NCBI RefSeq assembly: GCF_005049235.1
Contig: NZ_SUMD01000004.1
Coordinates: 1 to 64,000 of the forward strand
Length of the DNA: 64,000 bases
Direction of reading: 5' to 3'
DNA from: Rhodococcus oryzae
GTDB taxonomy: Bacteria > Actinomycetota > Actinomycetes > Mycobacteriales > Mycobacteriaceae
Shown: one piece after another, positions 31,693 through 45,789 of the stretch
Position numbering within the stretch: position 1 is the first letter of the stretch
Layout of the letters: every line of letters begins with the position of its first letter
Notes under the pieces: model-generated
Database searches by the model: none
Told to the model about the DNA's origin: nothing
What the model saw: the letters and a program-made list of their open reading frames with translations, nothing else
Position numbers and translations under genes: made by a program

Positions 31693-32578
31693 GGGGATGG
31701 TGGATCGGGACATCTGCGTCCGCCGGGGCGCTCGGTGCAAGGGGATCCGAGACCAGCGCGCGGTGGAAGATCGGGATCAGCGGACGGGGGGAGGGCTCGC
31801 CGGAGCGACGGAACGGCGCCGAGTCCCGCGAGCCATCTGTCCAATCGCGGACGCTCACCGAGGACAGATCGAGCCGAAACGGGGTCCGCGCCGCCAACTG
31901 GTGCAGGAACAGCGTCGCGGTCCGGCCGTTGCCCTCGCGGAAGGGGTGCGCGTGATTGAGGGTGGCGTAGATCCGCGCGAGCGCGAAGGCGAGCGCGCCC
32001 CGGTCGGGTGTCGACCAGTCGGCGTCGGCGACGTACCCCTCGACGAGGCCGAGGTAGTCGTCGATGGCGGGGACCGGGGCGAACTCGTTGCCGCCCTTCG
32101 TGATGTCGACGATCCGGGTCTGCCCGGCCCAGGCGAACACGTCGCCGAACACGTGCTGGTGCAGCTCGCGCAGGTGGGTGCCGTCGAAGCCGGAGCCGAC
32201 ATCGGGACGTCGGTCGTGCACCTGGAGGATCCGAACGGCGGTCGCGGTGAACTCGATCGAACGCAGCGCGGCGCCGTCCCGGTAGTCGAAGTTGTTCCGC
32301 AGCACCCGGGTTCCGGGCACCAGGTAAGGGTGACGCCGCAGGAACAGCCGTCGACGCGGCGGCACGGCGACGCGGAAGGTGTCGGCCTCGGCGCGGCAGT
32401 TCACCAGGTAGCTGCCGATGGTGAGCTCGCGGCGCAACACGGCGACGAGATCCGCGATCTGATCGGCGCGCGGCTCCCAGCCCTCGAGGCACTCGGCGGC
32501 GACCGTCTGGTCCACCGCGCGCGTCTGCCGTTCGTCGAGCCGGGCGAACAGCGTCGGCCAGCGCTCCGAGGCGTTCAC
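31676..32578 (-). CDS. Fic-domain protein (putative AMP transferase)
   Basis: 300 aa from GTG 32578, overlapping the stop of the DUF294 gene (GTGA). The Fic core has the complete active-site motif HPFREGNGRT (residues 211-220) and the upstream flap GQTRIVDITKGGNEFAPV, so it should transfer AMP or a related nucleotide to hydroxyl side chains. The N-terminal helix region (AVDQTVAAECLEGWEP, residues 21-36) resembles the VbhA-type inhibitory helix. Matches to (S/T)xxxE(G/N) are only partial: T25..E29-C30 or A28..E32-G33. Auto-inhibition may therefore be altered. Target proteins are unknown. Confidence 0.88.
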   Translation of the reverse strand: MNASERWPTLFARLDERQTRAVDQTVAAECLEGWEPRADQIADLVAVLRRELTIGSYLVNCRAEADTFRVAVPPRRRLFLRRHPYLVPGTRVLRNNFDYRDGAALRSIEFTATAVRILQVHDRRPDVGSGFDGTHLRELHQHVFGDVFAWAGQTRIVDITKGGNEFAPVPAIDDYLGLVEGYVADADWSTPDRGALAFALARIYATLNHAHPFREGNGRTATLFLHQLAARTPFRLDLSSVSVRDWTDGSRDSAPFRRSGEPSPRPLIPIFHRALVSDPLAPSAPADADVPIHHPHDQAE

Positions 32579-34032
32579 GCGCCCGGGCCCGCGTAGGCGA
32601 GTTTGCGTTGCACACCGGCGATCTCGCGGACGGCGTTCGCGAGCAGACTGCGGTAGAGCGGGGTGAGCGAGGCGATGGTGAGCTCGTCGGTGACCGGTAG
32701 CCCCTGTTCGAGCTGCTCGCACTGGTGGCGCAGCCGGATCTGCTGCAGGACGTCGAAGGATTCCGCCAGGATCCGGGCGTCGTCGTCCGGTAGGAGCCCG
32801 GTGTCCGCCGCGGCCTGCAGGCGCGCAGGGGTCGATCCGGCGCCCAGACCGGCGGCCAGGCCCGCCCAGCGTGCGATGTTGACGATCGGCATCACACCCT
32901 GCGACTTCAGGTTCACCGAATCGGTCCGTCGGGTGAGGACCTGGCGCAGCGAGTGGATGCGGACCTTGTCCTCGACCGCCTCGCGGAGCAGGAGCTTCAT
33001 CGCCGAGGGGGTGGCCCTGGTCCTGGCCGAGACCTGTGCGGACAGGCCCAGCGCGTCGTCACCCCACGTGACCCGGCTGTCGGCGAGCAGGGAGATCATC
33101 AGGACGCCCTTGTCCTCGTACGGGTCCGCGATCCACTGGTCCGCGGCGCGCATCCAGGCCCCGGCGGGCCGCGCGAAACGCGGTCGCGCGGCGGTGGCCC
33201 CCTTCTCGTCGGACGGGAAGCCGCACCGGTCGAGCAGGCGGTGCACCCGCGCGGCGGTGGCCATCAGTTCCGTCTCGGTGTCCGGCCGCTGGTCGTCGTC
33301 TGCCCACACCAGGGCACTGTCGACATCGGAGCCGGGCATCGCCTCGCGGCGGGCGACGCTGCCGAGCGAGAGCCAGGTGAGCGGTGTCCGGCCGGACCGC
33401 GCGGACCCGGTCTCCAGGTGCAGGGCCCGAGCGGCGGCTGCGTCCACGATCACCGAGAGGATCGCGGAGACGTCCAGCGGAGCGACCCTCGCCCGCCAGA
33501 GACCGAGCACCAGCTCGGGTACCTGGGCGGTCGCCGCGATCAGCGCATCCGGGGTGGCGGCCCTGGCCACGGCGGCGCGGAGCAGGAACCCGCTGCGGGT
33601 CGCGGTGGCCAGCAGGTCGCCGTCCTCGAGGACGCCGAGCAGTGCGCCCGTCTCGGACAGCACCGGCATGTGCCGCACCCCCCGCTCGAGCATGTCCATC
33701 AGGACATCCGCGCCGAGACGGTCCGCGGGAACGGTGCGTGCGGGTGCGGTCATCACGGCCGAGACCGGGGTGTGGGTGCCGAGCCCGGCGGCCACCACCC
33801 GCCGACGCAGGTCGCCGTCGGTGAAGATTCCGTGAGAACCCCCGGCCAGCGGGATGAGGACGTAGCGCCTGCCCTCCCGGGTCATCAGCTCGGCCGCCTC
33901 GCGCGCGGTGCTCTCGGGCGCACAGGTCAGCGCGGGGCCGCGCAGCAGCTCGCCGGCCCGGCGCATCGCCGGGTCACGAACGACCAGCGGGGCGGGTCCG
34001 CCGCCACCGTCCTTGTTCTGCACGGCTCTCAT
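32575..34032 (-). CDS. CBS-pair / DUF294 nucleotidyltransferase-like protein
   Basis: 485 aa from ATG 34032, with GGAAGGA 7 bp upstream; the longer frame upstream lacks such a signal. Two CBS motifs at about residues 35-150 (TREAAELMTREGRRYVLIPL, DGDLRRRVVAAG, VRHMPVLSETGALLGVLEDG) suggest adenine-nucleotide sensing. A GlnD-like nucleotidyltransferase domain follows, with LSLGSVARREAMPGSDVDSA near residue 250 (the GS...D-x-D motif), and then the DUF294 C-terminal domain. It is the first gene of a coupled trio with fic and the unknown gene, divergent from the permease operon. Confidence 0.88.
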   Translation of the reverse strand: MRAVQNKDGGGGPAPLVVRDPAMRRAGELLRGPALTCAPESTAREAAELMTREGRRYVLIPLAGGSHGIFTDGDLRRRVVAAGLGTHTPVSAVMTAPARTVPADRLGADVLMDMLERGVRHMPVLSETGALLGVLEDGDLLATATRSGFLLRAAVARAATPDALIAATAQVPELVLGLWRARVAPLDVSAILSVIVDAAAARALHLETGSARSGRTPLTWLSLGSVARREAMPGSDVDSALVWADDDQRPDTETELMATAARVHRLLDRCGFPSDEKGATAARPRFARPAGAWMRAADQWIADPYEDKGVLMISLLADSRVTWGDDALGLSAQVSARTRATPSAMKLLLREAVEDKVRIHSLRQVLTRRTDSVNLKSQGVMPIVNIARWAGLAAGLGAGSTPARLQAAADTGLLPDDDARILAESFDVLQQIRLRHQCEQLEQGLPVTDELTIASLTPLYRSLLANAVREIAGVQRKLAYAGPGA

Positions 34033-34230
34033 GGGCACATCCTTCCAGGACTCGGTGTTCCGACGCCGCAGGCGGCGGCGGTGAGCAGTTCGCAATGTCT
34101 GCGTAACGAATGACATTGAGACGCAACGGAAAGCCCGAACCTCGAAACGTGCGGGACACCCATGCGAGCTGGTCGAACGGAAAACTATCAACTGACAGAT
34201 ACTCCGCCGCCCCGCCTCGCAGGAGAGCCC
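34033..34230. other. Divergent promoter region between DUF294 and permease operons
   Basis: 198 bp without a gene. It must hold promoters for both directions. A guanidine-I riboswitch was looked for on the plus strand because the downstream genes are guanidine-type, but the conserved ACACGG and GACUGGUCC-like elements are not present. No strong palindrome is seen. Confidence 0.5.
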
Positions 34231-35748
34231 ATGACGACCGTCGCATCTCAGTCCCAGGACCACGACGACCTGGCGGAATTCGGGTACGAACAACAGCTGC
34301 ACCGGTCGCTGGGCAAATTCGCCTCCTTCGCGGCCGGCTTTTCCTTCGTCTCGATCCTGACCACGATCTTTCAGCTGTTCGGTCTCGGCTTCAGCTTCGC
34401 CGGACCCGCCTTCTTCTGGACCTGGCCGTGCGTGTTCATCGGCCAGTTCATGGTGGCCCTCTGCTTCGCCGAACTCGCCGCCCGCTACCCGATCTCCGGC
34501 GCGATCTACCAGTGGTCGCGGCGAATGGGCGGCGAGCTCGTCGGGTGGTTCGCCGGCTGGTTCATGATCCTGGCCCAGATCGTCACGGCGTCCGCCGCGG
34601 CCATCGCGCTCCAGGTCGTGTTGCCGACGGTCTGGAGCGGCTTCCAGATCGTCGGTGAGGACAGCGCCCTGACCTCGCCGAGCGGCGCCGCGAACGCGGT
34701 CCTACTGGGTTCGGTGCTGCTGGTGCTGACCACCACGATCAACTGCATCGGCGTCAACTGGATGTCGCGGATCAACAACATCGGCGTCACCTGCGAGATC
34801 ATCGGCGTGATCGCCGTGGTCGGGATGTTCTTCACCCACGCCCAGCGCGGGCCCGACGTCGTGTTCGACACGGGCGAGGCGGGCACCCAGCCGGGGTACA
34901 TCTGGGCCTGGATCGTCTCCGGGCTGATGGCCGCCTACGTGATGGTCGGGTTCGGCTCCGCGGGCGAACTCGCGGAAGAGACCCGCAACCCTCGCCGGGT
35001 CGCGCCCCGCACCATCCGGCTCGCGCTCTCGGTCTCCGCCATCGGCGGCGGACTGATGATCGTCGGCGCACTGATGGCGGCGCCGAGCCTCACCGACGGC
35101 CGCCTCGCCACCGAGGGCCTGCCGTACGTGCTGACCTCGATCCTCTCCTCGCCCTGGGGGACGCTGCTGCTGATCGACGTCGCCATCGCGGTGTTCGTGT
35201 GCACCCTCGCCATCCAGACCGCGGCCTCGCGGCTGATGTTCTCGATGGCCCGCGACGGCCGACTGCCCGCCTCGTCGGTGCTGGCCCGGGTCAACCCCCG
35301 CACCGGGACCCCGATCGCGCCCTCCGTCCTGATCGGCCTGCTGTGCGTGGCGGTGCTGGCCGTCAACGTCGGCAACTCCGCGATCTTCACCACCCTCTCG
35401 AGCGTGTGCATCGTGCTGATCTACCTGGCCTACCTCATGGTGACCGTGCCGTTGCTGGTGCGCAGGCTCAGCGGCTGGCCGACCGGCGGGCCGCAGGTGG
35501 ACGCGGAGGGCCGCCCGCTGTTCTCGCTCGGGAAGTTCGGGATCCCCGTCAACATCGCGGCCGTCCTCTACGGCGCGCTGATGGTGGTCAACCTCTCTTG
35601 GCCGCGCGCCGAGATCTTCAACCCGACAGGCGAATTCCCCCTCCTGCAGTGGGCCGCGCCGCTCACCGTCGCGGCGGTGGTGCTCATCGGAGCCTTCTGC
35701 TACCCGCGCGGCAAGACCGTACCGAACCCCGTCACGATCGGAGCCTGA
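34231..35748 (+). CDS. APC-family permease of the urea-carboxylase-associated type
   Basis: 505 aa, twelve predicted TM helices. N-terminal signature FGYEQQLHRSLGKFASFAAG and the APC motif FAELAARYPISGAIYQWSRR, as in amino-acid permeases linked to urea/guanidine carboxylase operons. The likely cargo is guanidine, a guanidino compound or urea, inferred from the operon only. ATG 34231 follows CAGGAGAG. The stop lies 2 bp before the first DUF1989 gene; the following genes overlap, so this is the first gene of a five-gene operon up to 40919. Confidence 0.88.
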   Translation: MTTVASQSQDHDDLAEFGYEQQLHRSLGKFASFAAGFSFVSILTTIFQLFGLGFSFAGPAFFWTWPCVFIGQFMVALCFAELAARYPISGAIYQWSRRMGGELVGWFAGWFMILAQIVTASAAAIALQVVLPTVWSGFQIVGEDSALTSPSGAANAVLLGSVLLVLTTTINCIGVNWMSRINNIGVTCEIIGVIAVVGMFFTHAQRGPDVVFDTGEAGTQPGYIWAWIVSGLMAAYVMVGFGSAGELAEETRNPRRVAPRTIRLALSVSAIGGGLMIVGALMAAPSLTDGRLATEGLPYVLTSILSSPWGTLLLIDVAIAVFVCTLAIQTAASRLMFSMARDGRLPASSVLARVNPRTGTPIAPSVLIGLLCVAVLAVNVGNSAIFTTLSSVCIVLIYLAYLMVTVPLLVRRLSGWPTGGPQVDAEGRPLFSLGKFGIPVNIAAVLYGALMVVNLSWPRAEIFNPTGEFPLLQWAAPLTVAAVVLIGAFCYPRGKTVPNPVTIGA

Positions 35749-35750
35749 CA

Positions 35751-36590
35751 GTGACCGCAACCAACACCACGACCGCTGCCCGTGCGCACGCCCGCGCACA
35801 GGCGGGCGAGATCACCGATTCGATGCCGGTGCTGCCGCCATCCCGGTGGCCCAGCCCGCCGGATGGTGTCGCCGCCGAACGCCTGACCTGGGCGGAGACC
35901 GTGCCGGGTGGCCGCTACACCTCGAAGGTGCTGGCCCGCGGCACCAGGCTGCGGCTGCGCGACCTCGCCGGCGCGGCCTGCGCAAACGTGCTGCTGTACC
36001 GCGCCGACGCGCCATGGGAACGGCTCAACGCGGCCGACACGGTGAAGGTGCCCTGGCAGGCCTACCTCGGTACCGGGCATCCGCTGCTCTCCGATCAGGG
36101 GCGGGTCCTGGCCACGATCGTCGCCGACACCGCGGGGCGGCACGACGCCTTCTGCGGCACCAGCAGCCTGGCCGACAACCTCGCACGGTACGGAGAGGGC
36201 GCCGCGCACTCGGGCGCACCGGCGGGCCGGGAGCTGCTGACCCTCGCCGCCGCCAAGCACGGCCTTACCCCTCGCGACCTGCCGCCCGCGCTGAGCTTCT
36301 TCCACGGCGTCCGGGTCGAGGCGGACGGTGCCTTGACCAGCACCGGGAACGCGGGGGCCGGAGCGGAACTCGAGCTGCTGATCCACCTGCCGGCGATCGT
36401 GCTCATCGCGAACACCGCGCACCCGCTCGACCCGGCGCCGACGTACCAGACCACCTCCCTCGAGGTGCTCGCGTGGGAGGCGGTGGCCGATCTCGGCGCC
36501 CTGACCAACGAGGACCCCGAGTACCGGCGGGCTGTCCTCAACAGCGAGGACGCCTGGGCAGCCGCACAGTTCGGAAAGGACGCAAAATGA
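35751..36590 (+). CDS. DUF1989 protein, urea-carboxylase-associated protein 1 (CgdA-like)
   Basis: 279 aa. DUF1989 domain with TVPGGRYTSKVLARGTRLRL, NVLLYRADAPWERLNAADT and the metal-site segment DAFCGTSSLADNLARYGEG. Paired DUF1989 proteins next to guanidine carboxylase have been shown in other bacteria to form carboxyguanidine deiminase, which turns carboxyguanidine into allophanate plus ammonia. The start is GTG 35751, two bases after the permease stop. The last codons overlap the ATG of the second DUF1989 gene (ATGA). Subunit assignment (A or B) is by gene order and length. Confidence 0.85.
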   Translation: MTATNTTTAARAHARAQAGEITDSMPVLPPSRWPSPPDGVAAERLTWAETVPGGRYTSKVLARGTRLRLRDLAGAACANVLLYRADAPWERLNAADTVKVPWQAYLGTGHPLLSDQGRVLATIVADTAGRHDAFCGTSSLADNLARYGEGAAHSGAPAGRELLTLAAAKHGLTPRDLPPALSFFHGVRVEADGALTSTGNAGAGAELELLIHLPAIVLIANTAHPLDPAPTYQTTSLEVLAWEAVADLGALTNEDPEYRRAVLNSEDAWAAAQFGKDAK

Positions 36591-37243
36591 CCTCCACCCT
36601 CGACAACCTCGCCCTCGTCCCTGGCGCCGTCGTCCTCGACGAGACCGTCGGCGCCCGCGGACCGTGGTCGGCGGTCGTTCGCGCGGGCGAGGTGCTGACC
36701 ATCGTCGACCTGCACGGAAACCAGGCCGTGGACAGCCTCTTCTACGCCGCCGACGACCACGCCGTGCGGTACTCGGCCGCGGCGACCGTTGCCGCGCAAC
36801 GCAACCTCTTCCTCACCACGGGTAGCGTGCTGCGCGCCGACGATTCGAGCGCGCTGATGACGATTGTCGCGGACGAGGTCGGCAACCACGACACCGTCGG
36901 CGGCGCCTGCTCGCAGGAATCGAACACGCTGCGCTACGGCCACCACACCAAGCACCAGCACGCCTGCGTGGAGAACTTCCTGGCCGAGGGCGCGAAATGG
37001 GGCCTGGGAAAACGCGATCTGGTCTCCAACATCAACTTCTTCATGAACGTGCCGGTCGACGCCGACGGCACCCTCGGGATCGTCGACGGGTTGTCTGCGC
37101 CCGGCAAGCGGCTGGCGCTGCGGGCCGAGGTGGACACCCTGGTGCTGGTCTCGAACTGCCCGCAGATCAACAACCCGTGCAACGGCTTCGACCCGACCGA
37201 GGTCCGGATGATCGTCACCCGGCCGACCGGGGACAACCGGTGA
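36587..37243 (+). CDS. DUF1989 protein, urea-carboxylase-associated protein 2 (CgdB-like)
   Basis: 218 aa, second DUF1989 subunit. It contains DETVGARGPWSAVVRAGEVL, DLHGNQAVDSLFYAADDHAV, the conserved GGACSQESNTLRYGHHTKHQ with the metal-ligand Cys and His, and NINFFMNVPVDADG. Expected to pair with the preceding protein in carboxyguanidine deimination. The stop overlaps the GTG of the carboxyltransferase gene (GTGA at 37240-37243), so there is no room for a biotin carboxylase gene in between. Confidence 0.87.
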   Translation: MTSTLDNLALVPGAVVLDETVGARGPWSAVVRAGEVLTIVDLHGNQAVDSLFYAADDHAVRYSAAATVAAQRNLFLTTGSVLRADDSSALMTIVADEVGNHDTVGGACSQESNTLRYGHHTKHQHACVENFLAEGAKWGLGKRDLVSNINFFMNVPVDADGTLGIVDGLSAPGKRLALRAEVDTLVLVSNCPQINNPCNGFDPTEVRMIVTRPTGDNR

Positions 37244-39246
37244 ACGCCGTCACCGTCCAGCGGCCGGGAATGCTGACGGCGGTGCAGGACTGGCCCGGTC
37301 GGGTGGGGTACTGGCAGATCGGGGTGCCGCCGTCGGGGCCGATGGACGACCTGTCCTTCCGGCTCGGGAACGTCGCGCTCGGCAACGACGAGGGCGCACC
37401 CGGCCTCGAATGCACCATGGCAGGCCCCGCCCTGCGGTTCACGGAGGCGACGACGGTCTGCGTGACAGGCGCGCCGACGGTCGTCACGGTCGACGGGCGG
37501 CCCGTCGCGTCCTGGCAGTCGGTCGCCGTGCCCGCTGGCGGCGTCCTCGACGTGGGCGCGGTCAGCGGTCCCGGCCTGCGGATCTACGTCCTGGTACGGG
37601 GTGGACTGACCGTGCCGGACTACCTCGGCAGCGCCGCGACCTTCACCCTGGGGCGGTTCGGCGGCCACGAGGGCCGGACCCTACGCGAGGGGGACGTGCT
37701 CGTCGCTGGTGGCGGTGCGTCGAACCCGGCTGTCGCCCAACCCGTTCCGATGGAGCACCGGCCGGTCATCGGGGGCCACTGGGAGATCGCGGTCACCGAG
37801 GGGCCGCACGGGGCGCCGGAGTTCTTCACCAGGGAGGACATCGACACCCTGCTGGCCACCGACTACGAGGTGCATTTCAACTCCGATCGCACCGGCGTCC
37901 GGCTGATCGGCCCGAAGCCGGACTGGGCGCGCACCGACGGCGGCGAGGCGGGACTGCATCCGTCCAACATCCACGACAACGCCTACTCGGTCGGGGCGCT
38001 CGATTTCACCGGCGACACACCGATCCTTCTCGGGCCCGACGGCCCCAGCCTCGGCGGTTTCGTCTGCCCGGTCACCGTCGTGGCCGCGGAACGGTGGAAG
38101 CTCGGCCAGCTCAGCCCGGGGGACACCATCCGGTTCGTCCCCATCCGCGCGGCCCACGCCGCGTCGAGAAGCGAACTGGGACTGGGCCGCAGGGCCAGCC
38201 TGTCGACGGTCTTCGGGCGGGGCGGCGACGGGGACGACGGGGTGATCGCCAGGCGGGACGGGGCCACCCAGGTCACCTACCGGCGCTCCGGCAACGACAA
38301 CGTGCTCGTCGAGTACGGCGACATGAGCCTGGATCTGGCCCTGCGCGCGCGGGCACACGCCCTGCACCAGAGGCTCGAGGCGGAGAAGCCGGCGGGCCTG
38401 CTCGACCTGACCCCCGGCATCCGGTCGCTCCAGGTCCGCGTCGACCCCGACGTGCTGCCGGTCCCGAAACTGATGGGCCTGCTCGCCGAGGCCGAGGACC
38501 AGCTCCCCGACGCCTCGGAACTGGTGGTGCCCAGCCGCGAGGTCCGGATGCCCCTGTCCTGGGACGACCCCTCCACCCGCGAGGCGATCAAGCGGTACAT
38601 GCACGGCGTCCGGGCCGACGCGCCCTGGTGCCCATGGAACATCGAGTTCATCCGGCGGATGAACGGTCTGGAGTCGGTGAACGACGTCTTCGAGACCGTC
38701 TTCGGTGCGCAGTACCTGGTCCTCGGGCTGGGCGATGTCTACCTCGGCGCGCCGGTGGCCACCCCGCTCGACCCGAGGCACCGGCTGGTCACCACCAAGT
38801 ACAACCCGGCCAGGACCTGGACGCCGGAGAACGCTGTCGGGATCGGCGGCGCGTACCTGTGCATCTACGGGATGGAGGGCCCGGGCGGCTACCAGTTCGT
38901 CGGTCGCACCACCCAGGTATGGAATCACCGGCACCCCCAGCGGTCGGGGCCGTTCGAGGAAGGCACCCCCTGGCTGCTGCGTTTCTTCGACCGGATCAGT
39001 TGGTACCCAGTCGAACCCGACGAGCTGCTGGAGCTGCGCGCCGAGACGGCCGCAGGCGGAGCGGGCGGGGTCCAGATCGTCGACGGCAGTTTCTCGCTCG
39101 CCGAGCACGACCGGTTCCTCGCGGACAACTCCGAGTCGATCGACTCGTTCCGGGCCACCCAGGCCCGGGCGTTCGGGGCCGAACGCGAGGCCTGGTCCGC
39201 GGCGGGGGAGTTCGCCAAGACCGAGACAAAGGAGGTGGCAGCATGA
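37240..39246 (+). CDS. Carboxyltransferase-only part of urea/guanidine carboxylase (KipA-KipI fusion)
   Basis: 668 aa. Residues 1 to about 300 are the AHS2/KipA-like domain (VQRPGMLTAVQDWPGRVGYW, VLVRGGLTVPDYLGSAATF). Residues from about 344 to 560 are the AHS1/KipI-like domain (YRRSGNDNVLVEYGDMSLDL, YKYN-type segment TTKYNPARTWTPENAVGIGG). The linker that precedes the biotin carrier in complete enzymes follows (FFDRISWYPVEPDELLELRA), and the protein then ends. The ATP-grasp biotin carboxylase domain (about 450 residues) and the biotinyl-lysine domain are absent. Start and stop overlap the neighbouring genes by 4 bp, so this is not a broken frame. Either the missing parts act in trans, or the reaction differs. 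Confidence 0.88.
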   Translation: MNAVTVQRPGMLTAVQDWPGRVGYWQIGVPPSGPMDDLSFRLGNVALGNDEGAPGLECTMAGPALRFTEATTVCVTGAPTVVTVDGRPVASWQSVAVPAGGVLDVGAVSGPGLRIYVLVRGGLTVPDYLGSAATFTLGRFGGHEGRTLREGDVLVAGGGASNPAVAQPVPMEHRPVIGGHWEIAVTEGPHGAPEFFTREDIDTLLATDYEVHFNSDRTGVRLIGPKPDWARTDGGEAGLHPSNIHDNAYSVGALDFTGDTPILLGPDGPSLGGFVCPVTVVAAERWKLGQLSPGDTIRFVPIRAAHAASRSELGLGRRASLSTVFGRGGDGDDGVIARRDGATQVTYRRSGNDNVLVEYGDMSLDLALRARAHALHQRLEAEKPAGLLDLTPGIRSLQVRVDPDVLPVPKLMGLLAEAEDQLPDASELVVPSREVRMPLSWDDPSTREAIKRYMHGVRADAPWCPWNIEFIRRMNGLESVNDVFETVFGAQYLVLGLGDVYLGAPVATPLDPRHRLVTTKYNPARTWTPENAVGIGGAYLCIYGMEGPGGYQFVGRTTQVWNHRHPQRSGPFEEGTPWLLRFFDRISWYPVEPDELLELRAETAAGGAGGVQIVDGSFSLAEHDRFLADNSESIDSFRATQARAFGAEREAWSAAGEFAKTETKEVAA

Positions 39247-40919
39247 CGGCGGTGGAGCGGGTCCGGGCGGCGTATCGCGCGATCGAGGCGGCCGACCGGC
39301 CGGAGATCTGGATTCACCTGCGCCCCGAGTCGGAGGTGTTGGCGGAGGCGGAGGCGGTGGACCGGCGCGCCGACGCACCGCCGTTGCGCGGCACGGTGCT
39401 GGCGGTCAAGGACAACGTCGACGTGGCGGGGATGCCGACCACGGCCGCCTGCCCGGAGTTCGCCTTCCTGCCGGAGTCGGACGCCGAGTCGGTTGCCGCC
39501 CTGCGGGAGGCGGGCGCGGTGGTGATCGGGAAGACGAACCTCGACCAGTTCGCGACCGGTCTCGTCGGTACCAGGAGCCCGTACGGAGCGGTGCGCGATT
39601 CCCTTCGCCCCGAGTACATCTCGGGCGGCTCCAGCTCGGGCTCCGCGGTGGCGGTCGCGCTCGGCCTGGTGGACCTCGCGGTCGGCACCGACACCGCCGG
39701 ATCGGGGCGGGTGCCCGCCGCCCTGCAGGGGATCGTCGGGATCAAACCGACCTACGGGGTCGTCTCCGCCGAGGGCGTCGTGCCCGCGTGCGCGTCCTAC
39801 GACTGCGTGACGATCTTCGCGCCCGACCTGCACGGTGCGTCGCGGGCGATGGCCGTGCTCGCCGCGGGCGCGCCTGGCCGCGCCTGGCCCGCGCACGTTC
39901 GGCTGGCCGCGCCGCCGCGGCCGCGGGTGGCCGTGCCGCGCGAGCTGCCGGGCCTCGACGCCGACTGGGCGGCGGCGTTCGGCGCGGCGGTCCGCGCGCT
40001 GGCCGAATCCGGCGCCGAGATCGTGGAGATCGATCTCGACCCGTTCCTGGCCGCTGCCAGGTTCCTCTACGACGGGGCGCTGGTGGCGGAGAGGTACGCG
40101 GCAGTCGGGGAGTTCGTGGATTCGCGGCCCGGCGCCGTCGATCCCACCGTCCGGGCGATCGTCTCGCCTGCGGGCGGGATCGAGGCGCATCGGCTGATCG
40201 CCGACCGGAGCCGCCTGCAGCAGCTGCGCGCGACTGCGATGGCGCGGTTGGAGGGCATCGACGCCCTGATGATCCCCACCGCGCCCGAGCATCCGACCAT
40301 CGCCGAGGTCGCGGCCGACCCGATCGGGGTGAACTCGCGGATGGGGACCTACACCAACTTCTGCAACCTCTTCGATCTGTGCGCGGTGGCGGTGCCCGCC
40401 GGGACGGCGGGACCCGCACACTTCGGGGTGACCGTGCTCGCGCGTGCCTTCGAGGACGCGGTCGCGGCGGACATCGCGGGGATGGTGAGCGGATCGGTGG
40501 TCGAGGGGTGGACCGCAGCGGCGGCTCCGTCGGTCGAACTGGCGGTGTTCGGCGCCCACCTGCTCGGCCAACCGCTCGAGCACCAGCTCACCGGGCTGGG
40601 CGCGCGCTGGCTCGGGCCCGTGTGGACCGCGCCGAACTACCGCCTCACGGCCCTGGACACCGTGCCCCGCAAGCCCGGACTGATCCGGGTGGCCGACGGC
40701 GGGGTGTCGATCGCGGGGGAGAAGTGGTTGCTCTCCCCGGCCGCGCTCGGGCGTTTCCTCGCCGAGCTGCCGACACCGATGCAGCTCGGCGCCGTCGAGT
40801 TCGACGACGGGACCTGGGGGACCGGCTTCGGCTGCGATCACGCCGCGGCGGCGCGCGGCCGCGACATCAGTGGGTACGGCGGCTGGAAGGCGGCGCTGGC
40901 AGCGGGCGCGCTCGGCTGA
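39243..40919 (+). CDS. atzF: Allophanate hydrolase (AtzF type)
   Basis: 558 aa. Amidase-signature domain (residues 1 to about 420) with the Ser-cisSer-Lys triad: Lys in LAVKDNVDVAGMPTT, Ser residues in YISGGSSSGSAVAVALG and TDTAGSGRVPAALQG. The C-terminal domain (about 430-558, VFGAHLLGQPLEHQLTGLGA, then DISGYGGWKAALA) is the one that handles N-carboxycarbamate in AtzF. Together they hydrolyse allophanate to ammonia and CO2. ATG 39243 overlaps the previous stop. It completes the guanidine/urea route: permease, (carboxylase), deiminase, allophanate hydrolase. Confidence 0.92.
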   Translation: MTAVERVRAAYRAIEAADRPEIWIHLRPESEVLAEAEAVDRRADAPPLRGTVLAVKDNVDVAGMPTTAACPEFAFLPESDAESVAALREAGAVVIGKTNLDQFATGLVGTRSPYGAVRDSLRPEYISGGSSSGSAVAVALGLVDLAVGTDTAGSGRVPAALQGIVGIKPTYGVVSAEGVVPACASYDCVTIFAPDLHGASRAMAVLAAGAPGRAWPAHVRLAAPPRPRVAVPRELPGLDADWAAAFGAAVRALAESGAEIVEIDLDPFLAAARFLYDGALVAERYAAVGEFVDSRPGAVDPTVRAIVSPAGGIEAHRLIADRSRLQQLRATAMARLEGIDALMIPTAPEHPTIAEVAADPIGVNSRMGTYTNFCNLFDLCAVAVPAGTAGPAHFGVTVLARAFEDAVAADIAGMVSGSVVEGWTAAAAPSVELAVFGAHLLGQPLEHQLTGLGARWLGPVWTAPNYRLTALDTVPRKPGLIRVADGGVSIAGEKWLLSPAALGRFLAELPTPMQLGAVEFDDGTWGTGFGCDHAAAARGRDISGYGGWKAALAAGALG

Positions 40920-40996
40920 GGGGCCGATGTTCTCGGGCTCTCGACGGGTGGCCGCGCGCCTGCAATGGTTGAGGTGTGACTCGAGGAGGTGTGAGC

Positions 40997-41266
40997 ATGA
41001 TGGACGTGAAGCAGTGGTCGGTGGGCGTCGTCATCGACGAGCACGACGGCCGAACGCGGGCCAAGGCACGGCTGAGCGCGAGCGAGAAGCCTGAGATGGT
41101 CGGTGTCGGGTTGGCGAGGCTCAACCCGGAGGACGCCGATGTCCCCGCGATCGGCGACGAACTGGCGACAGCGCGTGCACTGGCGGACCTGTCCCACCAA
41201 TTGATCGAGGCCACCGCGGCCGATATCGAGGAGGTCACCAAGCAGCCGTCGAATCTCTACAGCTAG
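40997..41266 (+). CDS. DUF1876 domain protein (dsRBD-like)
   Basis: 89 aa with AGGAGG 7 bp upstream; ATG 41000 is an equally possible start. The sequence VKQWSVGVVIDEHDGRTRAK then ALADLSHQLIEATAADIEE fits DUF1876, a small actinobacterial family with a double-stranded-RNA-binding-like fold and no established role. It lies 2 bp before the DUF202 gene, so the two are co-transcribed. Confidence 0.85.
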   Translation: MMDVKQWSVGVVIDEHDGRTRAKARLSASEKPEMVGVGLARLNPEDADVPAIGDELATARALADLSHQLIEATAADIEEVTKQPSNLYS

Positions 41267-41268
41267 GC

Positions 41269-41616
41269 ATGAGCCGCAACCTGTTCGGCCCCACCCAGCC
41301 GAACACCGGCAGCACCGCACGCGACCATCTCGCGAACGAGCGGACCTATCTCGCGTGGCATCGCACCGGTATCAGCGTCGCCGCGCTCGGTGTCGCGGTC
41401 GCGAAGTTCGCCCCGAACCGCGGCGGCCACGCCGTCGCCGCCGGGTTCATCCTGATCGGCGCCGGACTGCTGGTGTCCGCCTACGGCACCCTTCGCTACC
41501 GGGCCATCAGCCGGCAGATCGAGTCGGGGGAGTTCGCGCCGGCGACCTTTGCCGCAATCGCGACATCGACTGTCGTGACGGTGCTCGCGGTGCTCGCCGT
41601 GGCGGTCCTGCTATGA
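41269..41616 (+). CDS. DUF202 (YidH-type) membrane protein
   Basis: 115 aa. DUF202 signature RDHLANERTYLAWHRTGISV at residues 18-37, then three hydrophobic segments (VAALGVAVAKF; AVAAGFILIGAGLLVSAYG; FAAIATSTVVTVLAVLAVAV). The function of the family is unknown. It ends in a 6-bp tail-to-tail overlap with the convergent formylglycine-generating enzyme gene. Confidence 0.88.
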   Translation: MSRNLFGPTQPNTGSTARDHLANERTYLAWHRTGISVAALGVAVAKFAPNRGGHAVAAGFILIGAGLLVSAYGTLRYRAISRQIESGEFAPATFAAIATSTVVTVLAVLAVAVLL

Positions 41617-42540
41617 GTCGGCCGCGACGCAGCGGAACCCGATGTGACTCATCCCGGTGTCGATCATCTGCGGCCTCCTGGCCGCGGGCCGATACCGTCG
41701 GCAGTAGCTGTCCGCGCACAGGAACGAGCCGCCCTTGATCACCTTGCGGGGAACCCCGAACTGGGGCTGGCGGGGGTCGAAGCTCTCCGACCGGCCGGGC
41801 CCTCGCGGGTTGCGGGGGGCGCAGCACGACTCCGTCGTGTCGGGGTGCCGGTCCGAATACCAGTCCGCGGTCCATTCCCAGACATTGCCCGCCATGTCAC
41901 AGAGGCCGTACTCGTTGGGCGGGTAGCTGCCGACGGCGGTGGTGGCGCCGTATCCCGCCTCGGCGCGCCACGGGAAGTCGCCGTGCCAGTAGTTCGCCAG
42001 CGGACGGGATTCGGCTTCGGGCTCGTCGCCCCAGGTGAAGTCGGTGCCGTCGAGGCCGCCCCGCGCCGCGGCCTCCCATTGCGCCTCGGTGGGCAGCGAC
42101 CGGCCCGCCCACCGTGCGTACGCTTCCGCGTCCTCGTGCGCGACATGGATGACGGGATGCTGTTCCAGGCCGGCCGTGGACGACCCGGGGCCCATCGGGT
42201 GCTGCCACGACGCACCGACCGTCCAGGTCCACCACTGGCTCAGGTGGCGGAGGTCGACGGGACCCGGCGTCGGCGTGAACACCATCGAGCCCGGTTGCAG
42301 GTTCTCGGCGGGAGCCCCGGGGAACTCCGCGGGATCGAGCGGGCGTTCGGCGACCGTGACGTAGCCGGTGTCCCGCGTGAAGCGCGCGAACTGCGCGTTG
42401 GTGACCTGGTGGGTCTCGATGGCGAAGGCGTCGACCGCGACGCGATGCGCCGGGCCTTCCTCCTGGTAGTGCCGATCCGAGCCCATGGTGAAGGTCTGGG
42501 CGGGGATGCGCCGGACCTCGGAGACGATCTGGGTTTCCAA
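41611..42540 (-). CDS. Formylglycine-generating enzyme (SUMF1/FGE family)
   Basis: 309 aa. Converts a cysteine in the sulfatase active-site motif to C-alpha-formylglycine using oxygen and copper. N-terminal IPAQTFTMGSDRHYQEEGPA; middle LPTEAQWEAAARGG and AGNVWEWTADWY; C-terminal GGSFLCADSYCRRYRPAARR with the catalytic pair C275 and C280, and the ending GMSHIGFRCV. It lies 27 bp after the HAD gene and shares strand with the sulfatase gene two positions upstream, its obvious substrate. Start ATG 42540. Confidence 0.93.
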   Translation of the reverse strand: METQIVSEVRRIPAQTFTMGSDRHYQEEGPAHRVAVDAFAIETHQVTNAQFARFTRDTGYVTVAERPLDPAEFPGAPAENLQPGSMVFTPTPGPVDLRHLSQWWTWTVGASWQHPMGPGSSTAGLEQHPVIHVAHEDAEAYARWAGRSLPTEAQWEAAARGGLDGTDFTWGDEPEAESRPLANYWHGDFPWRAEAGYGATTAVGSYPPNEYGLCDMAGNVWEWTADWYSDRHPDTTESCCAPRNPRGPGRSESFDPRQPQFGVPRKVIKGGSFLCADSYCRRYRPAARRPQMIDTGMSHIGFRCVAADS

Positions 42541-42567
42541 CGAAGCCTTGCCTTTCCTACTGCCTGA

Positions 42568-43509
42568 TCAGGTGACGGCCGACGAGAAGACGTTCGTCCA
42601 GTCGTTCTTCATGCTCACTACGGTCCAGTTCTTCTCTCGTGCGTGATCGAGGGCCTGCTCGGCTCCGGCGACATAGTCGAATTCGCGGTCGGCGTCGTCG
42701 TGCAGGATCAATGCCCGCAGAGACGGGCGGTCCGGCTGACCGGAGAAGGCGAGCATCGGCAGGTCGCCGTTGGAGTTGCCGACCGACAGGATCGGCCGTC
42801 GTCCGATCCGGCTCCAGATCCGGATCGGCTTCTCCGGTCCGTCGTCGAAGAAGTCCATCGCGGCCTTGTAGAGCAGGTCCGTCGCCTCCGCCCCCTCCCG
42901 GTACGAGAGGCCGAGGGCGCTGCCGATGATGCGTTCCGGCGGCACCCCGTACAGCTCGCCTGCGACCGGGCGCATGAAATCCCGATCACCGCCGGACGCG
43001 ATGTAGTTCGCGAAACCGTTTGCCTCCAGGTAGCGCAGGAGTTCGACCATCGGCGCGTACCCGCAGCCCCGGTAGGGGCGGCCGAGCGTGGGGTGGTCGG
43101 CGCCGGCGAAGAAGGCCCGGACCCGAGCGTCGTAGTTCTCGACCGTGACGGAATCGAATGCCTCGGTGACGGCGCCCATCAGCAGTTTCAGGTCGCCGTC
43201 GTCGCCGTTGTAGTGCTTGACCATCGCCGCACCGAGCCACTGGAGGTCGTGCTCGTGGGCCGCCTTCCAGGGTTGCCTCTCCTGGAGGGCGGGATCGCCT
43301 GCCGCGATCTCGGCGAAGCGCCGGACGGTGAAGTCGAGCTGGATGGGCATCGGCTTCTCGCACCAGAGCGTGCCGTCGTTGTCGAAGACGGCCACCCGGT
43401 CCGCGGGTTCGACGAAGTCGGGTCCGTCCGCGGTGGTGACCCGCTCGACGAAATCGACGATCGCGGACCGGGTCGCCCCGTCCGCCCAGGACGCCAGGTG
43501 TGTACCCAT
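42568..43509 (-). CDS. HAD-superfamily hydrolase
   Basis: 313 aa from ATG 43509. Motif I DNDGTLW with D43 and D45; motif II region ANYIASGGDRDFMRPVAGEL; motif III/IV RRPILSVGNSNGDLPMLAFS, where NxxxD supplies magnesium ligands. Related to phosphoserine-phosphatase-like HAD enzymes; the substrate is unknown. It sits 5 bp after the sulfatase gene and 27 bp before FGE, so it probably acts on a product of the same pathway, possibly removing phosphate while the sulfatase removes sulfate (inference). Confidence 0.87.
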   Translation of the reverse strand: MGTHLASWADGATRSAIVDFVERVTTADGPDFVEPADRVAVFDNDGTLWCEKPMPIQLDFTVRRFAEIAAGDPALQERQPWKAAHEHDLQWLGAAMVKHYNGDDGDLKLLMGAVTEAFDSVTVENYDARVRAFFAGADHPTLGRPYRGCGYAPMVELLRYLEANGFANYIASGGDRDFMRPVAGELYGVPPERIIGSALGLSYREGAEATDLLYKAAMDFFDDGPEKPIRIWSRIGRRPILSVGNSNGDLPMLAFSGQPDRPSLRALILHDDADREFDYVAGAEQALDHAREKNWTVVSMKNDWTNVFSSAVT

Positions 43510-43514
43510 GGACG

Positions 43515-45053
43515 TCAGTCCTTCGCCAGGAAGGCGTGCAGCTTGGCCACCGCGTGATCGATGGTGAAGCTGGCCGGCTCCTGCCGCGGCGGGAACTCCT
43601 TGAAGGTCTCGAGGAATTGACTGGTGATGAACGTGCCGTAGATGGCTATGTAATCGTGGTCGAGGAACCAGTCCCAGTAGGTGTTCGAGGTGATGTCGGC
43701 GCGCTCGAACGGGTCGGTGCGCAGATTGAACACCTTCGGTACCCGCAGGGCTGTGAACGGCTCCGCCCACAGCCCGAGGGTGCCCTGTGCCCGTTGTTCC
43801 ATGAACACGATCTTCCAGTTGTCGAACCGGATGCCCAGTACGTCGCAGTCGTCGGAGAAGTAGATCAGCCCACGGCGCGGGGACGTCTCGACCTCGCCGG
43901 TGAGGTACGGGAGCAGGTTGTAGCCGTCGATGTGCACCTTGAACGTTTTGTCGCCGACGGCATGCCCCACCTTCAGCTGGTCGACGATCTCGGGTGCGCC
44001 CGCGGCGGCGAGGAAGGTCGGCAGCCAGTCGTGGTGCTGCACGATCTCGTTGGACACCACGCCTGCGGGGATCTTGCCCGGCCAGCGGATCACCTCGGGG
44101 ATGCGGAAGGCGCCCTCCCAGTTGGTGTCCTTCTCGCTGCGGAACGGCGTGGTCGCGCCGTCCGGCCAGGTGTTCGCATGGGGACCGTTGTCGGTGCTGT
44201 AGATGACGATGGTGTCCTCGGCGAGGCCCAGTTCGTCGACCGCGTCCAGCAGCCTGCCGACGTGCTTGTCGTGATCGACCATGGTGTCGTGGTAGGGCGA
44301 CTGCCAGTGCCCGGCCTGCCCCAGACTCTCCGGTTTCGTGTGGGTCCGCAGGTGCATGTGTGTGGTGTTCATCCACACGAAGAACGGTGTCTCCGACTCC
44401 TTCTGCCTCGTGATGAAGTCGATTGCCGCGGAGACCGTCTCGTCGTCGATGGTCTCCATCCGCTTCTTGCTCAGCGGCCCGGTGTCCTCGATGCGCTGCT
44501 TCCCGACCGGCCCGTAGCGCTGATCGACCTCGCCCGCGTCCTCTTCGGTGGCCCAGCAGTGCAGGACACCGCGCGGCATCATCACCTCGTGGAGTTTGGG
44601 GTAGTCCTGTGCGCTGGGGTAATCGGCGAGCTCGGGCTCCTCTTCGGCATTGAGGTGGTAGAGATTGCCGAAGAACTCGTCGAACCCGTGCACGGTCGGC
44701 AGGTACTTGTTGAGGTCACCGAGGTGGTTCTTCCCGAACTGCCCGGTTGCGTATCCGAGCGGCTTGAGCAGCTCGGCGATGGTGGGGTCCTCGCCCGACA
44801 ACCCGATGTCGACTCCCGGGATGCCCACCTTGCTCATGCCGGTGCGGTACACGCTCTGACCGGTGATGAACGAGGCGCGGCCGGCCGTGCAACTCTGCTC
44901 GCCGTAGGAGTCGGTGAACTTCATGCCCTCGTCGGCGAGGCGGTCGATGTTCGGTGTCCGGTACCCCATCAGCCCTTCGCTGTAGCAGCTGAGATTGGTG
45001 ATGCCAATGTCGTCGCCCCAGATCACCAGGATGTTGGGTTTGGTGTCCGCCAT
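43515..45053 (-). CDS. Arylsulfatase-type sulfatase with CTAGR active-site motif
   Basis: 512 aa from ATG 45053 (GAGGAG upstream). No signal peptide, so cytoplasmic as annotated. Metal ligands D14-D15 in ILVIWGDDIGITN; active-site motif C55-T-A-G-R within SCTAGRASFITGQSVYRTG; later IIVYSTDNGPHANTWPDG-like metal loop (44160-44220) and the YHDTMVDHDKHVGRLLD segment. The canonical FGE motif is CxPxR; here Pro is Ala. CxAxR sulfatases are well known as clients of anaerobic (radical SAM) maturases, yet an FGE gene is two genes downstream. The substrate is unknown. Confidence 0.9.
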   Translation of the reverse strand: MADTKPNILVIWGDDIGITNLSCYSEGLMGYRTPNIDRLADEGMKFTDSYGEQSCTAGRASFITGQSVYRTGMSKVGIPGVDIGLSGEDPTIAELLKPLGYATGQFGKNHLGDLNKYLPTVHGFDEFFGNLYHLNAEEEPELADYPSAQDYPKLHEVMMPRGVLHCWATEEDAGEVDQRYGPVGKQRIEDTGPLSKKRMETIDDETVSAAIDFITRQKESETPFFVWMNTTHMHLRTHTKPESLGQAGHWQSPYHDTMVDHDKHVGRLLDAVDELGLAEDTIVIYSTDNGPHANTWPDGATTPFRSEKDTNWEGAFRIPEVIRWPGKIPAGVVSNEIVQHHDWLPTFLAAAGAPEIVDQLKVGHAVGDKTFKVHIDGYNLLPYLTGEVETSPRRGLIYFSDDCDVLGIRFDNWKIVFMEQRAQGTLGLWAEPFTALRVPKVFNLRTDPFERADITSNTYWDWFLDHDYIAIYGTFITSQFLETFKEFPPRQEPASFTIDHAVAKLHAFLAKD

Positions 45054-45105
45054 CGTTCGCTCCTCGCGTGTGCGGTCGGGTGCAAAAATCGCAGTTCCGA
45101 CGCTG

Positions 45106-45789
45106 CTAGGGTCGCCTGCGGTGCACATCACCCGCATCGGGTGAGAGTCGCCGTCGAGTTCGGTCCGTGGTGAGGATGTACGCACTGATCAGTACGACCC
45201 AGGCCGGGAACATCAGCGTCACCCACAGGCTGAAACTGACGACGACCAGCAGGCTGAGCGCCAGTACGTAGGTGACGATCGCCAGCGCTCGCGGCATCAG
45301 ACCGGTGCGCAGCCAGATGGTTCCCAGCGAGATCATGAACACCGCGGCAAGCCGGACCTCGTAGACGTTGTTGATGTGCAGCATCACCTCGCGACCGAAG
45401 AACATCAGCTCGGCTTCCGGAGCCTTCGATTGCCGGGAGACGGCGAGCAGGCCACCGGCCAGCGCCATCGATACGCACATCATCGCGAGGAGCAGCAGCC
45501 CGCTGCCCAGGAAGACCGTCGCGAAGAAGCGGTCCTCGAGCACGCCGAACCGGTCGCGGATGACGCCGATGAACCACAGGAAGGCGATGCCCGCGAAGGG
45601 GGCCAGCACCAGGGCGATGGTGATCTGGGTTTGGCCGCGTAGCCAGGGCGACCCGGCGGCGGCAGGCAGCGAGGTGCGCAAGAGCACGATGCTGGTCGCG
45701 AACAGGACGCCGAATACGATCCCGGCGACCGCCGCGGCGCGCGGCGTGCGCAGCTTCCGGAACTCGGCCTCTCCCAGCGTGCCGGCCAT
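45106..45789 (-). CDS. Multi-pass membrane protein, unknown function
   Basis: 227 aa with six likely TM helices (for example AAAVAGIVFGVLFATSIVLL, ITIALVLAPFAGIAFLWFIG, FLGSGLLLLAMMCVSMALAG, ALAIVTYVLALSLLVVVSFS). Not a family I can name. The N-terminus is soluble (MAGTLGEAEFRKLRTPR) and the C-terminus basic. It lies between the FAD monooxygenase (53 bp) and the sulfatase (52 bp), all on the minus strand. Confidence 0.8.
   Translation of the reverse strand: MAGTLGEAEFRKLRTPRAAAVAGIVFGVLFATSIVLLRTSLPAAAGSPWLRGQTQITIALVLAPFAGIAFLWFIGVIRDRFGVLEDRFFATVFLGSGLLLLAMMCVSMALAGGLLAVSRQSKAPEAELMFFGREVMLHINNVYEVRLAAVFMISLGTIWLRTGLMPRALAIVTYVLALSLLVVVSFSLWVTLMFPAWVVLISAYILTTDRTRRRLSPDAGDVHRRRP

Follow-up and report, generated by a model that had tools for sequence, protein, structure and literature searches.

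A carboxyltransferase-only, guanidine-carboxylase-like protein in a predicted guanidine operon of Rhodococcus oryzae and its relatives

The stretch of DNA analysed, hereafter the window, comprises 64,000 nucleotides of Rhodococcus oryzae (NCBI RefSeq assembly GCF_005049235.1, contig NZ_SUMD01000004.1, positions 1 to 64,000), whose forward strand carries at 34231–40919 five genes in the order permease, UAAP1, UAAP2, carboxyltransferase (CT) and allophanate hydrolase (AH). The CT corresponds to the middle part of a guanidine carboxylase and lacks both the biotin carboxylase (BC) and the biotin carboxyl carrier protein (BCCP) domains. This domain loss has a single origin on the tree of CT sequences, the catalytic residues were kept, and no BC or BCCP dedicated to the CT was found. 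We tentatively favour the explanation that the protein is a CT-only guanidine carboxylase supplied with carboxybiotin by a shared alpha chain of acyl-CoA carboxylases, AccA3 being the most likely one. Guanidine as the substrate is suggested by the signature aspartate and by the UAAP neighbours; carboxybiotin would be supplied in trans, and the partner named here is a candidate.

All five genes were found at the places given by the initial annotation, and matches to family profiles confirmed the operon as one of a permease, two DUF1989 subunits, a CT and an AH (Table 1). Both halves of the KipA-KipI fold are present in the CT (PF02626 and PF02682). The urea carboxylase model TIGR02712 is matched at positions 447–1119 of 1201 only, with 971 bits, and its equivalog cut-off of 1303.85 is not reached. 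Since the match begins at 447 and stops at 1119, the BC that would come before and the biotinylated carrier domain that would come after are absent from the chain, in agreement with the earlier description of a 668-residue KipA-KipI carboxyltransferase without BC and without biotinyl domain. The CT, a single chain, is not PxpBC, as it scored 115.1 bits against the PxpC cut-off of 500 and 28.9 bits against the PxpB cut-off of 145.55. With two defining domains absent, the gene product is no guanidine carboxylase of the usual kind, but it may still work like one. Overlaps of 4 bp join UAAP1 to UAAP2 (ATGA, 36587–36590), UAAP2 to the CT (GTGA, 37240–37243) and the CT to the AH (ATGA, 39243–39246); the two on either side of the CT, at 37240 and 39243, had been reported before and were verified. 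UAAP1 and UAAP2 have what defines CgdAB, namely two adjacent DUF1989 subunits scoring above the cut-offs of TIGR03424 and TIGR03425.

For comparison, 121 loci were used. Besides the window, they comprise 40 stretches of DNA from members of its family and 80 named contigs, which ranked highest among at least 595 candidates. Some of them are one genome sampled twice, and the 66 loci classified as CT-only hold 61 distinct CT sequences; the other 55 have BC and/or BCCP around the CT and are termed one-chain. One flank is shorter than 7.9 kb in nine of the CT-only loci (contig or stretch ends), and L162, cut by a contig end, was reassigned by hand from CT-only to one-chain because a BCCP follows its CT. 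A BCCP match was obtained in 0/66 CT-only loci and in 55/55 one-chain loci. Searches with a urea-carboxylase BC (tblastn, both strands) gave no match in 65 of the 66 CT-only loci, compared with matches above 100 bits in 54 one-chain loci. The remaining locus, L087, gave a match of 82 residues and 50.8 bits, which falls in a frame of 1148 aa with weak ATP-grasp-like matches, probably a carbamoyl-phosphate synthase, judged by size.

The window genome is placed near Rhodococcus maanshanensis (97% CT identity), and the named CT-only hosts are Rhodococcus (and Rhodococcoides), Nocardia, Mycobacterium/Mycolicibacterium, Gordonia, Williamsia and Skermania. The one-chain form occurs, among others, in Streptomyces, Arthrobacter/Pseudarthrobacter, Actinoplanes, Amycolatopsis, Lolliginicoccus and Smaragdicoccus, and also on a single Mycobacterium contig (L122). 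In the tree of the 121 CT sequences, calculated with a quick setting and with approximate likelihood ratio test (SH-aLRT) values as its support, all CT-only rows lie on one side of a single branch (SH-aLRT 98), and the CT-only trait requires 1 change, compared with a mean of 40.2 after shuffling. One row of this tree, L165, from a contig titled Rhodococcus sp. IEGM 1409, bears the label Cyanobacteriota, which looks wrong; its CT is near-identical to that of the R. erythropolis group.

CT-only genes terminate at most 31 residues from a late conserved Trp or from the AERDAW motif. Stops inside the aligned CT were absent from 66/66 rows, and the ratio of nonsynonymous to synonymous substitution rates (dN/dS) of the CT against three relatives was 0.055, 0.140 and 0.160. 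The loss of the domains reads as one old event, after which the CT was kept under selection. The single clade, the uninterrupted frames and the dN/dS values bear out the view that the split is stable and functional rather than a product of decay. Assembly loss or a frameshift at the window was rejected, as the nearest relatives share the arrangement, and the BC and BCCP domains in frame with the CT are found only in relatives outside the clade. Co-occurrence across relatives, left to be checked by the initial annotation, was complete for the two deiminase subunits: UAAP1 and UAAP2 stand beside the CT in 66/66 CT-only loci, with UAAP2 at most 266 bases from the CT.

According to the available text of PMC11410670, guanidine carboxylases are distinguished from urea carboxylases by Asp at Kluyveromyces lactis position 1584 and by Asp, not Asn, at position 1330, and Lys1605 is, in the excerpt of PMC5770610, most likely the general base of carboxyl transfer. 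The equivalent residues D255, D499 and K520 were kept in 66/66 CT-only rows and 53/53 one-chain Actinomycetota rows, and Asn was found at 1330 in 2/2 urea-type rows (one-chain enzymes of Rhodococcus, G081 and G021). With D255 and D499 in every CT-only row, the signature is that of guanidine rather than urea carboxylase. The catalytic set of biotin-dependent carboxyl transfer is, as far as the aligned residues tell, intact in the CT-only clade. The sole column fixed differently between this clade and the one-chain enzymes is residue 216, directly before the invariant Arg217, where the CT-only rows have Asp. The 63 rows outside the clade have Ala (52) or Ser (1) in the 53 one-chain Actinomycetota, Asn in the two urea-type enzymes, and Ala (3), Ser (2) or Asn (3) in eight CTs from a plasmid collection, three of which (L200, L202 and L203) lie in unannotated stretches and were taken as one-chain. 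Since CTs with the guanidine signature can have Asn here as well (L198, L200), residue 216 does not track the substrate alone.

Possible donors of carboxybiotin were sought in the same genome. Domain counts over the whole genome gave 5 BC C-terminal domains, 9 biotin/lipoyl domains and 2 CT_A_B domains, the last two being the operon CT and a PxpC-like gene on contig C30. Given these counts, the genome has no full-length urea or guanidine carboxylase, which answers another point left to be checked by the initial annotation. The five BCs belong to what we take, from size, neighbours and typical family layouts, to be a pyruvate carboxylase (1137 aa), an AccA3-like alpha chain of 649 aa, an alpha chain of the leucine operon, an AccA2-like alpha chain and a multidomain carboxylase of 1909 aa; a PF01039 carboxyltransferase gene lies directly upstream of the leucine-operon and the AccA2-like alpha chains. 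Because their identity to the urea-carboxylase BC is 40–49% (highest 48.8%), none of the five looks like a detached guanidine-carboxylase BC. They look like ordinary carboxylases, and the proposal of a BC-BCCP dedicated to the CT and encoded elsewhere found no support.

An orphan small BCCP (L020) of this genome is located at G000:C1:472173-472367, in a 122-aa frame with an ESMKME motif that adjoins a histidine-kinase-like gene; it resembles the mycobacterial TB7.3 protein. Small BCCP frames were found in 7/8 genomes examined and were absent from the matches of the eighth, G007, so this protein was rejected as universal partner.

BC types were determined in 15 CT-only genomes, picked mostly for having few BCs or a missing AccA2, so the sample is not random and a count such as 14/15 is no frequency. 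Types were assigned by the best tblastn match to the five BCs of the window genome, and their names are assigned from size, neighbours and typical family layouts. For nine of the 15 (G018, G037, G044, G062, G084, G107, G111, G116 and G128), the classification as CT-only is based on the length of the open frame alone (665–941 aa), and in these nine all BC domains on the same contig lie at least about 46 kb from the CT. AccA3-like chains were found in 14 genomes, leucine-type in 13, AccA2-like in 11 and pyruvate carboxylase in 10; every genome typed carries at least one AccA3-like or AccA2-like BC chain. The number of BC genes in CT-only genomes ranges from 2 (G007) to 10 (G150). Two BC frames of about 1070 aa, G068:C1:117592 (L230) and G084:C1:134426 (L232), fit no reference type well, their best match being AccA3 with 37–38% identity.

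A shared alpha chain is put forward as donor because the site of biotin-dependent transfer is intact and because in Streptomyces coelicolor alpha subunits are common to several acyl-CoA carboxylase complexes (PMC13118682, available portion). Also in its favour are the 163 of 172 outgroup-invariant columns that the CT-only clade has kept, UAAP1 and UAAP2 without fixed differences, the single origin and low dN/dS of the CT, and the AccA3-like or AccA2-like chain present in every genome typed. The ancestor would have had a BC-CT-BCCP chain beside UAAP1 and UAAP2, from which one lineage of mycolic-acid actinobacteria would have lost both outer parts and kept the CT. Guanidine would be imported by the permease. 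The BC-BCCP chain of acyl-CoA carboxylases, AccA3 in the first place and another where AccA3 is missing, would make carboxybiotin with ATP and deliver it to the free CT, where Lys520 and Asp255 would activate and position guanidine for carboxyl transfer. UAAP1 and UAAP2 would then deiminate carboxyguanidine to allophanate, and the AH would cleave allophanate to ammonia and CO2.

Several observations weigh against a shared alpha chain as donor. No BC type is common to all 15 genomes typed. G007, a single contig with CT, UAAP1/UAAP2 and AH, has a pyruvate carboxylase and an AccA2-like chain only; a direct search of this genome gave no AccA3 ortholog, although AccA3 is regarded as essential in mycobacteria, its congener G037 has one, and AccA3 is thereby ruled out as universal partner. 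The AccA2-like chain was rejected in the same role, with no ortholog in G068, G084, G116 and G128, and pyruvate carboxylase is missing from G016, G018, G044, G062 and G107. In the absence of a universal type, the CT either accepts whichever alpha chain is present or needs none. AccA3 is general in this bacterial group, so its presence in CT-only genomes says little, and to our knowledge no BCCP of the acyl-CoA family serves a CT of the KipA/KipI fold. A mixed outgroup was formed from 27 one-chain Actinomycetota, 8 CTs of the plasmid collection (7 of them from Pseudomonadota) and 2 urea-type enzymes. Of its invariant columns, the CT-only clade keeps 163/172, compared with 170/172 in 24 mostly Streptomycetaceae rows; with a second outgroup it keeps 161/170, compared with 165/170 in 17 other one-chain rows. 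The clade thus keeps somewhat fewer deep-invariant columns than either control group, a shortfall hard to weigh because diversity is lower in the controls (mean identity 0.858 and 0.758) than in the clade (0.721). The permease and the AH diverge more, with 100/124 and 96/113 columns kept, respectively; one AH column (residue 186) and several permease columns differ between CT-only and one-chain loci. The genome G007 (L175, L187) also has the longest CT-only end branch named in the CT tree.

A carboxylation independent of biotin is unlikely in our judgement. In it the CT, either by itself or complexed with UAAP1/UAAP2, would join guanidine with CO2 or bicarbonate, the hydrolytic deiminase step pulling the reaction and Asp216 beside Arg217 forming part of a new chemistry. 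Proteins of the CT fold that work without biotin exist, one case being PxpB/PxpC, for which an ATP-dependent phosphorylation of 5-oxoproline is assumed (PMC13274462, in the part available). The loss of both BC and BCCP with no dedicated replacement found, the lack of a BC type universal among the 15 genomes, and the change of residue 216 from Ala, Ser or Asn to Asp, one column fixed differently in the clade, are all consistent with it. The active-site set of biotin-dependent CTs is conserved, which argues against it. Moreover, guanidinium is strongly basic, and its carboxylation is energetically doubtful unless the donor is activated. In its specific form, in which the CT would carboxylate guanidine with neither biotin nor BC, coupled to UAAP1/UAAP2 and with Asp216 as a new catalytic residue, this explanation is judged unlikely.

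It is quite unlikely that the UAAP1-UAAP2-CT trio has been redirected to another substrate or task, such as a different guanidino or amide compound, binding or regulation, with the AH as an optional member. The AH was seen inside the stretch examined in 31/66 CT-only loci. Genomes of the R. erythropolis group (G083, G097 and G121) have it elsewhere; in G029 (L081, with UAAP1-UAAP2-CT) a search of the genome at E ≤ 1e-80 gave no AH, and the 108 genomes in which an AH was matched do not include G111, whose CT frame has 825 aa. The trio can therefore persist without the AH, and Asp216 could alter substrate binding. Against this, Asp255 is unchanged in 66/66 rows, the operon of the window includes an AH joined by a 4-bp overlap, and no UAAP1 or UAAP2 column is fixed differently from the subunits beside one-chain enzymes, so the deiminase step looks unchanged and would need carboxyguanidine. 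A Mycobacterium subclade of eight rows (L081, L115, L117, L118, L124, L128, L129 and L131; SH-aLRT 100) has UAAP1-UAAP2-CT and no permease or AH in the stretch; the gene that follows appears similar in L115 and L117.

A decaying remnant of guanidine carboxylase is highly improbable: two domains were lost, one stop was flagged in each of six CT matches (G005, G068, G075, G082, G104 and G134) and one relative's copy lies in two frames, but in the four matches checked (G068, G075, G082 and G134) the stop is the gene's own, 1–2 residues beyond the aligned CT, the aligned CT is free of stops in every row with dN/dS of 0.055–0.16, one clade extends over six named genera, the overlaps are kept here, and the Mycobacterium smegmatis operon is induced by nitrogen starvation (PMC4222082, available part). 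The copy in two frames, at G096:C13:173295-175238 (open frames of 705 and 170 aa), is possibly a frameshifted one.

Table 1. Features of the operon, its upstream element and selected CT codons in the window.
Feature	Position	Strand	Evidence or remark
CTATCAACTGACAG, imperfect palindrome, operator-like	34185..34198		At the AmtR-operator position; similar element 5' of the permease in the relatives shown
Permease, APC-type, 'urea carboxylase system'	34231..35748	+	TIGR03428, 917.8 bits (cut-off 740.45); PF13520; AGGAGA before start
UAAP1, DUF1989 subunit, carboxyguanidine deiminase family	35751..36590	+	TIGR03425, 288.8 bits (cut-off 205.95); GTG start at 35751
UAAP2, second DUF1989 subunit, carboxyguanidine deiminase family	36587..37243	+	TIGR03424, 332.2 bits (cut-off 284.7)
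CT-only guanidine-carboxylase-like protein, 668 aa, subdomains A-B and C-D	37240..39246	+	PF02626 at 27-301; PF02682 at 346-565
Asp216 codon, fixed in the CT-only clade	37885..37887	+	D in 66/66
Asp255 codon, equivalent to K. lactis 1330 (TIGR02712 position 701)	38002..38004	+	D in 66/66
Asp499 codon, equivalent to K. lactis Asp1584 (TIGR02712 position 956)	38734..38736	+	D in 66/66
Lys520 codon, equivalent to K. lactis Lys1605	38797..38799	+	K in 66/66
AH (allophanate hydrolase, AtzF type), amidase and C-terminal domain	39243..40919	+	TIGR02713, 653 bits (cut-off 511.05); PF01425, PF21986

The permease is a probable guanidine importer. Its start at 34231 (AGGAGA, then ATG), as annotated initially, was preferred over the longer frame from 34162, because the latter would put the operator-like palindrome inside the gene. 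This palindrome, CTATCAACTGACAG, resembles CTATN6ATAG, which we assume to be the form of the AmtR box, without matching the pattern itself; the exact form is present in four Nocardia loci. The element is regarded, from its sequence, as a putative AmtR operator in this genome. For M. smegmatis, binding of AmtR upstream of the permease gene msmeg_2184 is reported (PMC4222082, available part). In the portions available of PMC4222082 and PMC3662644, AmtR and GlnR bind upstream of msmeg_2184-2189, nitrogen starvation induces the permease 48-fold and the 'urea amidolyase' 3-fold, and the strain does not grow on urea alone. No guanidine riboswitch was matched in Rfam at E ≤ 1 within 33500–41500.

The operon is adjoined by a gene for a CBS/DUF294 nucleotidyltransferase (PF03445, PF10335) on the reverse strand, at 32575–34302 of the window. 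A gene downstream of the CT in R. erythropolis (L093, 10869–12299) resembles it, as judged by eye. On the reverse strand, at 41611–45185 of the window, a gene with a sulfatase-modifying factor domain (PF03781) lies beside genes that look, by eye, HAD-type-like and sulfatase-like.

Urea and guanidine carboxylases have been described as one-chain BC-CT-BCCP enzymes, and a clade of soil bacteria and opportunists has dropped both cofactor-bearing parts and kept the active site. No description of a CT-only guanidine carboxylase was found in the open-licence literature searched, which does not by itself show its absence from print. Borrowing of carboxybiotin from AccA3 would mean that nitrogen scavenging shares a carboxylase subunit with lipid synthesis; if there is no borrowing, a biotin-free carboxylation remains to be found. 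In the latter case a CO2-fixing enzyme of nitrogen scavenging would work without biotin across Rhodococcus, Nocardia, Mycobacterium, Gordonia and their relatives. Either way, the protein offers a natural isolated CT for testing the two half reactions apart, and guanidine becomes a likely substrate for the AmtR/GlnR operon.

Among the closest known systems is that of guanidine carboxylase, CgdAB and AtzF, with the same operon partners, the CT fold, Asp at K. lactis 1330 and 1584 and the catalytic Lys. Known guanidine carboxylases carry BC and BCCP in the same chain of about 1200 aa, whereas the CT described here has neither, and no nearby gene takes their place. The K. lactis urea carboxylase KlUC (PDB 3va7) is homologous to the CT over nearly its full length (3va7 479–1148). 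The one-chain paralogs of Rhodococcus (G081, G021) have 59–60% identity to the CT; they are of the urea type, with Asn at 1330 (2/2) and with BC and BCCP attached, and no UAAP1 or UAAP2 match was obtained in the 19.9-kb stretches around their genes. The PxpB/PxpC (KipI/KipA) subunits of 5-oxoprolinase have the same two CT halves, likewise without BC or BCCP, and differ from the CT in being separate chains that work with PxpA. The PxpC-like and PxpB-like proteins of this genome (contig C30) are 34.6% and 27.5% identical to the CT, respectively, and the latter has a gap at the position of Asp499 in the pairwise alignment. In M. smegmatis, msmeg_2184-2189 follow the same order of permease, two unknown frames, 'urea carboxylase' and amidase (PMC4222082, available part). 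Two nitrogen-starvation papers (PMC4222082, PMC3662644) name the likely M. smegmatis counterpart of the CT 'urea carboxylase' or 'urea amidolyase', and a missing BC or BCCP goes unmentioned in the available part of PMC4222082. M. smegmatis itself stands outside the comparison; the Mycobacterium/Mycolicibacterium loci L102, L109, L119 and L161 have the order of msmeg_2184-2189 and are CT-only.

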